A DNA stretch of 64,000 nucleotides from Spiroplasma apis B31 (GTDB taxonomy: Bacteria; Bacillota_I; Bacilli_A; Mycoplasmatales; Mycoplasmataceae). Positions 18,702-23,181 of the stretch are shown here, piece by piece. Location of the stretch: positions 1-64,000 of the forward strand of contig NC_022998.1 in the NCBI RefSeq assembly GCF_000500935.1, written 5' to 3'. Under the pieces are notes generated by a model. The model was not told the origin of the DNA and did not search any database. It was given only the letters and a program-made list of their open reading frames with translations. Positions within the stretch are counted from its first letter, which is position 1. Each line of letters begins with the position of its first letter. The position numbers and the translations under genes are program-made.

Positions 18702-19016
18702 ATGCCAATATTTAGTTTTAGGGGAGTACCAGAAGAAAAGGTGCGAGAATACTATAATAAAGTAGATGAAATAGGAAAACTTATAAATGCAAACGTAAAG
18801 AAAATTGTTTTTTGGTTTGAACCTTATAAACTTATAGGTGATTCTCGTCAAGAAAATGCTATTTTAGTGAAGGTTGATTGAATAGGTAGACCGCTAAAGC
18901 AAGAATTGCTAGCGAAGCATATTCAAGAAAATTTCTCAAATTACTCAGATAATATTTATGTACAATTCAATGAGGTAAATAACTTTTTATATTTAAATGG
19001 AGTATGTGTAGGATAA
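18702..19016 (+). CDS. DUF1904 family protein
   Basis: Small 104-residue cytoplasmic protein starting MPIFSFRGVPEEKV, the typical N-terminus of the DUF1904 family, which is related to the tautomerase/MIF fold. Function is unknown. A GTGGGG Shine-Dalgarno precedes the ATG. One TGA Trp codon (VDWIGR). Its stop overlaps the dus start (TAATG), so the two genes are probably translationally coupled. Confidence 0.75.
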
Positions 19017-19987
19017 TGAAAATTAAAAATCTAGAAATTAAGGGCAGCATTTTTTTAGGACCTATGGCCGGTACAACAAATGCTGCTTTTAGAATAATTT
19101 GTAAGGAAAAAGGAGCTGCATTAGTTTACGCAGAAATGGTTAGTACAGAAGGTTTAGTTCACAATAATAAAAAAACTAAAACAATGATTGAAGTCTCAGA
19201 TTTGGAACATCCAATATCATTGCAAATATTTGGTTTTGATGTTAATTCATTTGTTGAAGCTGCAAAAATAGTTGAAGAGTATTCTACCTGTGATGTAATT
19301 GATATCAACATGGGTTGTCCAGCTCCTAAAGTAGCTGTTAGAAGCCAAGCGGGCGCAAACCTATTGAAATATGAAGATAAAGTTGGGGAAGTAATTAAAG
19401 CTGTTGTAGAAAATACCACAAAGCCAGTAACAGTCAAGATGAGAATTGGTTGGGATGAAACAAGCAAAAATGTAGTTGAACTAGCCAAGATTGCGGAAAA
19501 AAATGGTGCTAGTGCAATAGCTGTGCATGGAAGAACAAGAAACCAATTCTTTACAGGAAAAGCAGACTGGTCTTGAATTAAAAAAGTCAAGGAAAGTGTT
19601 TCTATTCCTGTAATTGGCAATGGTGATGTTGTTGACGGACCAACAGCCAAAAAAATGTTGGATGAGACTGGTTGCGACGGAATCATGATAGCCAGAGCGG
19701 CACAAGGTAACCCATGAGTATTTAGAGAGATACAACACTATATCGATACTGGTGAAGAACTTCCGAAACCATCTTATGAAGAATGAAAAGAAACTGTTCT
19801 GAGACACGCAAACTTATTAATAGATATGCGTGGAGAAGAACTTGGCATTAGAGAAATGCGTAAGCAATTATTATGATACTTAGCTGTCTTGGAAAAACGC
19901 CCTGTAGTATTAGAAATGAAAAAAATGGCAACTGAAATAGTTGTATTAAAAGATATATATAATATATTTAATTTATATGAAAGTTAG
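19016..19987 (+). CDS. dus: tRNA-dihydrouridine synthase
   Basis: FMN-dependent reduction of uridines in the tRNA D-loop. The 323-residue protein begins with a flavin-binding pattern (IFLGPMAGTTNAAFR), has the catalytic Cys near residue 101 in NMGCPAPKV, then TVKMRIGW, AIAVHGRTRNQF and the phosphate-binding GNGDV. Four TGA codons are read as Trp in the second half. Start at 19016 overlaps the DUF1904 stop; an alternative ATG at 19004 adds four residues. lysS follows, the same dus-lysS pairing as in Bacillus. Confidence 0.94.
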
Positions 19988-19997
19988 AGGTTTTAAT

Positions 19998-21506
<1,509 letters not shown>

Positions 21507-21508
21507 AA

Positions 21509-22513
21509 ATGAAGTATGGGATAACACTAGGTTACACATCTAAATTGAACGAGTTAGAAACAATTGAAGGAATCGAGTTTGTTACAAACGAGTTGGAAAG
21601 TAGGCTAAAACTTGATTTTGACCTAATAAAAGTCAGAAGTGGGCTTGTAACTGATAAAATTCTTTGGCTAAACGATGATTTCCAACAAACAAAAAGACCA
21701 ATCGACTTTGATGTATCTTCTGAAAAAATGTATGGTGAATTATTGCAATCAAATAACAAATGAAGAAGATATTTCTTGATGAACAACGGTTTAGTTGAAA
21801 ATAATCAAGGCATAATAACAAACTTTTCAACAGTTACTCGTGACACTGTTATCGACAATATGAACTCGGTAGTTTATGACGAACTAGGGTTTGAGATTGT
21901 AAAACTTGATTATAGTATTGAAGAGATCAACAGCGTTTTAATTAAAGTTTATAAAGCTTTAGTTGAAATAGATTTAGCTTGTTCTTCAAAGTATAACTCA
22001 CTCGGTAAAAACCATCTCGGAGAAAAATTAACTTTTATATCACATAAAAAACTTAAAGCTTTGTACCCTCTTTTGACATTTAAAGAGCGACTTTCAAAGT
22101 TCGGGAAAGATAATGGCAGTTTTGTACTCCAAAATTATGTTGAGAAAACATTAAATCAACAAAAAAATACCCAATTCTCTGAAGATGTCTATGATTTTAA
22201 TAGTTATTCTAAATTATATGTATACAACAAAAGTTGTGAAAAAGTAACTAGTATGGGATATGTATCGTATCAAGTTGATAGAGAAACGTTGAAGTCCCAA
22301 AGCACTATCTTGAAAGAAAACAATAAAACCCAGACATTTTATCATCACTTAATCAAATCTAACAAACTCCCTTTGACAATAACTGGTGGGATTTTTATAA
22401 ATCGTTATATTATGACTCTTTTAGAAAAGCAACACATAGGCGAAGTCCAATCTTCTCTATGAAATAAAAAGTTTCTTCAATATTGCGAAATCAACAACAT
22501 TAAAATTTTATAA
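21509..22513 (+). CDS. AsnA (aspartate-ammonia ligase) homologue, diverged active site
   Basis: The 334-residue product aligns along its length with AsnA, the ammonia-dependent asparagine synthetase with a class II synthetase fold. Matching segments are VTNELESRLKL, ISHKKLKALYPLLTFKERL, the VTSMG segment, and the motif 3-like GGIFINRYIMTLL followed by HIGEVQ. However, the canonical motif HSxYVDQWDWE is replaced by NSVVYDELGFE, and the Asp of the GDILVWNP segment is not kept. Two TGA Trp codons. It starts two bases after the lysS stop, so it is co-transcribed with a synthetase. It may be a pseudoenzyme or have a new substrate. Homology is fairly sure, catalysis is not. Confidence 0.75.
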
Positions 22514-22554: not shown

Positions 22555-23181
22555 ATGGTTAGTTTAGTAATAGTAGCAAATGGTAAAAGTGTAAGGTTTG
22601 GAGAAAACAAACTGCTTTCACAAATTGATAAGGATATTTTAGTTTGCAAAACTATCAAATGTTTCTTGAATATAGCACAAATTACTGAAATCATTGTTGT
22701 ATGCAACAATGATTTGGCTTTAAAGATCGTAGAAAAAGTTAAGCAAAAATTAATTTTTGTTAAAGGTGGCGCAACAAGGACACTCTCAGTCGCGCAAGGA
22801 TTAGAAAAGGTAACTAACGAAAAAGTCTTAATCCATGACGGAGCAAGGCCCTTTGTTAAAAAAGAGATGATTGAAGAAATTATCAATTGCCTTAACGTTC
22901 ATTCAGTTGTGATACCTACAATAAAAATTGTTGATTGTTTAAAAAAGATAGTGGATGACAATGTGAAAACCTTAAATAGAGAAAATTATTTACTAACTCA
23001 AACTCCACAAGGCTTTGATACACATTTAATCAAAGAAGCATACAAAAATATTAATATAAATTGAGCAGATGACTGTCAAGCAATAGAAGACTTTGACGAT
23101 AAACCGAAAATAAAATTTATCAATGGTGATGTTGATAATGTCAAAATAACTTTTATGAAGGATTTGAAACCATCCAGTTAG
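22555..23181 (+). CDS. ispD: IspD-like cytidylyltransferase
   Basis: The 208-residue protein has the IspD/TarI nucleotidyltransferase pattern: N-terminal VIVANGKSVRFGENKLL (a weak form of the AAGxGxRM loop), GGATRTLSVAQGL, VLIHDGARPFV and TQTPQGF, then DDCQAIE. IspD makes CDP-methylerythritol in the MEP isoprenoid pathway; TarI makes CDP-ribitol for wall teichoic acid, which is not expected in a wall-less Mollicute. No other MEP gene is in the window. One TGA Trp codon near 23062. A CAAGGAG Shine-Dalgarno precedes the ATG. Its 5' neighbour is the AsnA homologue, and a terminator follows. Confidence 0.78.

Follow-up and report, generated by a model that had tools for sequence, protein, structure and literature searches.

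Directly downstream of lysS, the lysyl-tRNA synthetase (LysRS) gene of Spiroplasma apis B31, lies a gene whose product has kept the fold of the asparagine synthetase AsnA and lost its active site. We named this family of lysS-adjacent AsnA-fold proteins AsnX and its gene asnX. Taking together the kept fold, the lost site, the selection acting on the gene, its old linkage to lysS and its single origin, we consider the chance slightly better than even that AsnX is a non-catalytic AsnA paralog acting as a subunit that partners LysRS.

The window analyzed here is a stretch of 64,000 nucleotides (positions 1 to 64,000 of contig NC_022998.1) from a source genome of one contig and 1,160,554 bases. 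An initial annotation of the window had placed an AsnA-like open reading frame (ORF) downstream of lysS and quoted three motifs from it, GGIFINR, HIGEVQ and NSVVYDELGFE; its boundaries proved exact and the motifs stand as quoted (Table 1). The asnX frame is open under genetic code 4 alone, in which TGA encodes tryptophan (W85 and W318 are TGA codons), and it follows the lysS stop at 21506 after a gap of 2 nt. On its 3′ side, the ispD-like gene is followed by rpsF and ssb. Further upstream, a 104-amino-acid ORF (window positions 18702-19016) has an ABC transporter gene on one side and dusB on the other, and copies that are 28–49% identical occupy the same place in 5 of 16 loci compared in family f1, to which the source genome belongs.

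Table 1. Features of the asnX region, in window coordinates.
Feature	Position	Strand	Details
dusB	19004..19987	+	upstream of lysS; TIGR00737, 377.6 bits
lysS	19977..21506	+	class II lysyl-tRNA synthetase; TIGR00499, 620.7 bits (cut-off 427.6)
asnX	21509..22513	+	AsnA-fold protein without AsnA active site; 334 aa, code 4
R63-P-I-D-F67-D68 codons	21695..21712	+	family signature R-x-[IV]-x-F-D
R111-D112 codons	21839..21844	+	second part of signature
NSVVYDELGFE codons	21863..21895	+	aa 119-129; replaces AsnA HSxYVDQWDWE
GGIFINR codons	22385..22405	+	aa 293-299; class II motif 3 remnant
HIGEVQ codons	22433..22450	+	aa 309-314
ispD-like gene	22555..23181	+	downstream of asnX; comparison gene for dN/dS; TIGR00453, 159.6 bits (cut-off 181.3)

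AsnX shares fold, length and sequence ancestry with AsnA (PF03590; PDB 11as/12as/4lns) and differs from it in lacking the aspartate/ATP site, in carrying a new signature and in being tied to lysS. The Pfam AsnA model PF03590 matches window AsnX well above threshold (E 5.7e-27, 95.4 bits against a cut-off of 27), whereas the AsnA equivalog model TIGR00669 is missed by about 200 bits (90.6 against 292.8). AsnA is the one Pfam match of the 334-residue protein, and an anticodon-binding domain is absent. The solved structures nearest to window AsnX are asparagine synthetases, and among the VIA-align matches listed for its AlphaFold2 model (pLDDT 83.1, pTM 0.85) 11as is the best (Z 35.3, rmsd 2.4, 310 residues aligned). 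The same structure is the top match (TM 0.84) for the model of an f3 member, L073, that is only about 20% identical to window AsnX (pLDDT 88.6, pTM 0.90). Residues 60-72, the sole longer stretch below pLDDT 50 in the window model, contain the invariant R-x-I-x-F-D and are placed better in the f3 model. Going by the predicted structures, a loop that is conserved and yet poorly placed would suit contact with a partner.

To follow the fate of the active site, we aligned 82 AsnX sequences (40 from f1 and 42 distant ones) with 30 canonical AsnA from the same order and with E. coli AsnA, whose numbering is used for the 16 aspartate- and ATP-site positions that we scored. For positions other than Q116 and D219 the roles are in part our assumption; R100, D235, E248, S250 and R299 we take to be the ATP-site residues. 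Window AsnX keeps four of the 16 positions (D46, S72, G294 and R299), so that R299 is the only ATP-site residue retained. The other 12 are changed relative to E. coli AsnA: K77R, R100T, Q116E, D118G, D219Y, D235K, E248S, S250G, S251Y, R255Q, G292T and G296F. The losses run through the family. Each of the 82 AsnX keeps between 0 and 5 positions and none is kept family-wide, with Q116, D235 and K77 retained in none of the 82 and R299 in 26. The motif 2 arginine R100 survives in 18 of 40 f1 and none of 42 distant sequences, the motif 3 arginine R299 in 23 and 3, and E248 in 2 and 10, respectively; in other f1 genera the arginine of GGIFINR has become Q, K or A. All 36 f1 sequences aligned at Q116 and D118 carry E and G there, and none of the 40 has a glutamine at Q116 or an aspartate at D219, the pair that, according to PMC3532385, anchors the aspartate β-carboxylate in AsnA. 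By contrast, all 16 positions are invariant in the order's canonical AsnA (intact in 30 of 30 intact proteins), so the same substitutions do not occur there. The alignment thus indicates that the residues with which AsnA binds aspartate and ATP are lost in AsnX, which strongly supports the loss of catalytic residues suspected in the initial annotation. Across the family, the altered NSVVYDELGFE block is one part of a complete replacement of the site.

Other residues are conserved across AsnX. Despite about 20% identity, R63, F67, D68, R111 and E312 are present in 82 of 82 AsnX, D112 in 80 and H309 in 67. F67 and E312 are fixed in canonical AsnA as well; R63 and D68 are AsnX-specific, and the columns of R63, D68 and R111 vary among the 30 canonical AsnA. 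Written as a pattern (R.[IVLM].FD, 25–70 residues, RD), this signature occurs in 31 of 32 first ORFs behind lysS that are AsnX. Among 42 first ORFs that the profiles do not match it occurs once, among 156 further ORFs never, and among shuffled sequences at a frequency of 0.00027. The profile search favors sequences that bear the signature; the position behind lysS is independent of it. The one signature-bearing first ORF without a profile match (L130 in G266, 280 amino acids) looks by eye like a still more diverged AsnX, and we excluded it from residue counts and tree.

The tie between asnX and lysS, suggested for the window by the initial annotation, is strongly supported beyond it. In f1, lysS lies directly upstream of asnX in 42 of 42 carriers, two of them with broken asnX copies, and the intergenic distance ranges from -1 to 8 nt (36 measured, the start codon having been misplaced by the script in 2); in most cases the two genes either overlap in TAATG or are separated by no more than 8 nt. 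The longer series dusB-lysS-asnX-rpsF-ssb is conserved in f1 too. A further 18 f1 genomes, of genera g2, g4, g6, g7 and g11, lack asnX. Profiles A1 and A2, built from f1 AsnX and the first distant relatives, found relatives at 17–26% identity to window AsnX. Outside f1, 14 of 16 distinct weak-match loci follow lysS. In 74 stretches downstream of lysS, picked from 80 genomes mostly in genera with weak or double matches and hence not a random sample, the first ORF is AsnX in 32, at a distance of -11 to 23 nt. Four of the 80 genomes gave no lysS match, G023 (L168) was left out for a partial one, the stretch of G254 partly overlaps the set of weak-match loci, and those of G071, G262, G230 and others end at contig ends. 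Together, the two sets place a lysS-linked AsnX in 45 genomes outside f1 (one genome being in both), from families f3, f8 and f11. This distribution indicates that the lysS-asnX pair is older than the split of several mycoplasma families. Beyond the order, strong matches came from 198 genomes belonging to the class, and by their E-values we took these matches as canonical AsnA.

Behind the pair, the genes vary by clade as judged by eye: rpsF-ssb in f11, and in f3 clades a gene that is glf-like, ispD-like, trpS-like or unknown. AsnX is absent behind lysS in all 12 f7 genomes; in seven of them the ORF at this place carries, by eye, a DLDGT/DIDGT-type HAD hydrolase motif. Two AsnX-clade proteins, L076 (G029, f10) and L078 (G251, f7), do not adjoin lysS; L078 keeps RPISFD and RD, and L076 keeps INFD and RD.

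In a tree of 77 proteins, all 55 AsnX and the unlinked L076 and L078 form one group (SH-aLRT 100, branch 0.82) that is nested inside the order's AsnA and adjoins the AsnA of f3. The tree was made by a quick method and has branches up to 3.15, so long-branch attraction could contribute to this monophyly. The shared place behind lysS lends independent support beside the tree, and both point to a single origin of AsnX. A canonical AsnA is present in 12 of the 32 genomes in which AsnX is the first ORF, and by this coexistence AsnX is a paralog. On a 90-row LysRS tree, at least 12 changes, 8 of them forced by well-supported branches, are needed to account for where AsnX occurs behind lysS and where it does not; we read this as repeated loss of AsnX.

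We also set 73 LysRS from genomes with a lysS-adjacent AsnX against 38 from genomes lacking one there (two of the 38 genomes carry AsnX elsewhere). No LysRS column tracks AsnX: the strongest, F81, differs in frequency by 0.51, and no residue occurs throughout one set while missing from the other. Co-adapted residues in LysRS therefore find no support in this comparison.

Rates of substitution indicate that AsnX is under strong purifying selection and is not decaying. In nine usable pairs (3 of 12 were dropped, two as too close and one with saturated asnX), dN/dS is 0.053–0.117 for asnX, 0.039–0.108 for lysS and 0.165–0.369 for ispD, with asnX below ispD in all nine. The gene is intact in 20 of 20 genomes of its genus and in 40 of 42 f1 carriers. 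In the two exceptions (G173 and G195 of g5; loci L071, L072, L089 and L094), stops interrupt asnX and the upstream lysS is intact.

These data bear on several ways of reading AsnX. A functional asparagine synthetase whose residues are unusual would explain why PF03590 scores above its cut-off, and the source genome encodes no other: the search for a second, canonical asnA that the initial annotation proposed found no second AsnA relative there, and AsnB (PF00733) is also absent. AsnRS is present in that genome, so that asparagine is presumably imported from outside. With the Q116-D219 anchor turned into E and Y in window AsnX, three quarters of the scored site gone and the equivalog model missed by so wide a margin, we regard such an enzyme as highly improbable. 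Still less probable is a decaying asnA remnant, to which one could ascribe the two broken relatives; the low dN/dS, the intact copies in the remaining f1 carriers and the newly invariant residues contradict it. A connection with the cytoskeleton and helical form of Spiroplasma draws on a neat coincidence in f1, where all 42 asnX genomes have 4–9 MreB-family matches (best E < 1e-120) and all 18 genomes without asnX have 1–3 weaker ones (best E 1e-19 to 1e-61). However, the f1 genera without asnX lie in one fork of the LysRS tree, and the coincidence therefore probably reflects one ancestral loss. The two genomes with broken asnX retain 5–6 MreB-family matches, asnX also occurs in other families, and AsnX does not appear in the accessible part of the ribbon protein table of PMC5289999, all of which makes a cytoskeletal role very doubtful.

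Two further readings weigh more. AsnX may still be an enzyme, its class II scaffold rebuilt around R63, D68, R111, D112 and E312 so that it activates or amidates a different substrate, with the adjacency to lysS arising because both genes serve translation or nitrogen needs. The strong purifying selection and the charged nature of the invariant residues fit such an enzyme, and other class II relatives have gained new activities, as did PoxA/EpmA, which PMC9437257 lists. Against it, the usual ATP-handling residues R100, R299, E248 and D235 are not conserved, and we think a rebuilt enzyme unlikely. Of the roles that the initial annotation had suggested for a repurposed AsnA, a synthetase-associated factor or pseudoenzyme fits best; an amidotransferase acting on a new substrate is disfavored since no ATP-site residue is conserved family-wide. 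A little less likely again is that AsnX serves a separate purpose, such as RNA or tRNA binding, and never touches LysRS, a shared operon and translational coupling accounting for the gene order. The unlinked L076 and L078, the lack of any LysRS residue that tracks AsnX and the wider gene order kept in f1 agree with an independent job; outside f1, however, lysS-asnX persists with changing genes behind it. For a LysRS partner, too, there are counterarguments, as gene order alone could mean co-regulation and several of the invariants are charged and could form a new active site. In addition, the repeated losses, the two broken f1 copies and the unlinked proteins imply that LysRS can work without AsnX.

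In the LysRS partner model that we favor, AsnA would have been duplicated early in the order and, having lost catalysis, would have become a translation-coupled partner of LysRS. lysS and asnX presumably share one message, on which the minimal spacing, in many cases a TAATG overlap, would let ribosomes that end lysS re-initiate on asnX and so yield matched amounts of both proteins. AsnX may then bind LysRS or the LysRS-tRNA complex via a surface with the invariant R-x-[IV]-x-F-D / R-D signature and, once bound, stabilize, regulate or place the synthetase. We advance more tentatively, at somewhat below even odds, the broader scenario that in early mycoplasmas a duplicate of asparagine synthetase turned into a dedicated LysRS subunit without catalytic function, giving a two-protein LysRS that alters lysine charging or adds a second function. 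If this is true, many very small genomes would have as their LysRS a class IIb core joined by a class IIb-like pseudo-synthetase. Because mycoplasmas and spiroplasmas keep few genes and asnX is under selection like that on lysS, AsnX, kept beside lysS in several families, probably has a useful function in translation.

Related proteins help to place AsnX. The archaeal AsnRS-related asparagine synthetase AS-AR is an active enzyme. AsnX has the superfamily fold in common with it (PDB 3p8t and 3reu, Z 23–24) and belongs to a separate branch. EpmA/PoxA/GenX, the LysRS paralog that modifies EF-P, is likewise a stand-alone class IIb-related catalytic domain connected with lysine. By contrast, AsnX lacks the ATP site, descends from AsnA and matches neither EpmA/PoxA model (TIGR00462 and NF006828; TIGR00669 alone matched at E up to 0.1). 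HisZ is an inactive relative of HisRS that serves HisG. Like HisZ, AsnX has a class II synthetase fold without the original activity, its catalytic residues lost while purifying selection keeps it, and is likely a partner protein. It differs from HisZ in deriving from AsnA and in having a tRNA synthetase rather than a biosynthetic enzyme as its neighbor, and its partnership is a proposal. AsnX would work like the repurposed proteins of synthetase fold that PMC9437257 reviews, among which HisZ is closest in kind to AsnX. The accessible part of the Mollicutes translation survey PMC4014445 gives a single LysRS gene and names no such partner, and we found no description of the AsnX gene in the open-access papers searched, among them PMC3532385, PMC3854871, PMC9437257, PMC5289999 and PMC4014445. 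As AsnX passes PF03590, public models would label it an aspartate-ammonia ligase, and metabolic reconstructions may wrongly credit AsnX-bearing bacteria with asparagine synthesis. AsnX would offer a compact example of an enzyme from amino-acid biosynthesis that has probably become a tRNA synthetase partner.

Two minor observations concern genes near asnX and asnA. In L022 and L027 (f3 g45), an ORF upstream of the canonical asnA is 25–26% identical to lysS and is probably asnS or aspS. Long ORFs (570–611 amino acids, open at the end) with a shared KYIRKYD motif lie behind asnX in L096, L105 and L106, two of them in f3 g36 and one in g42.
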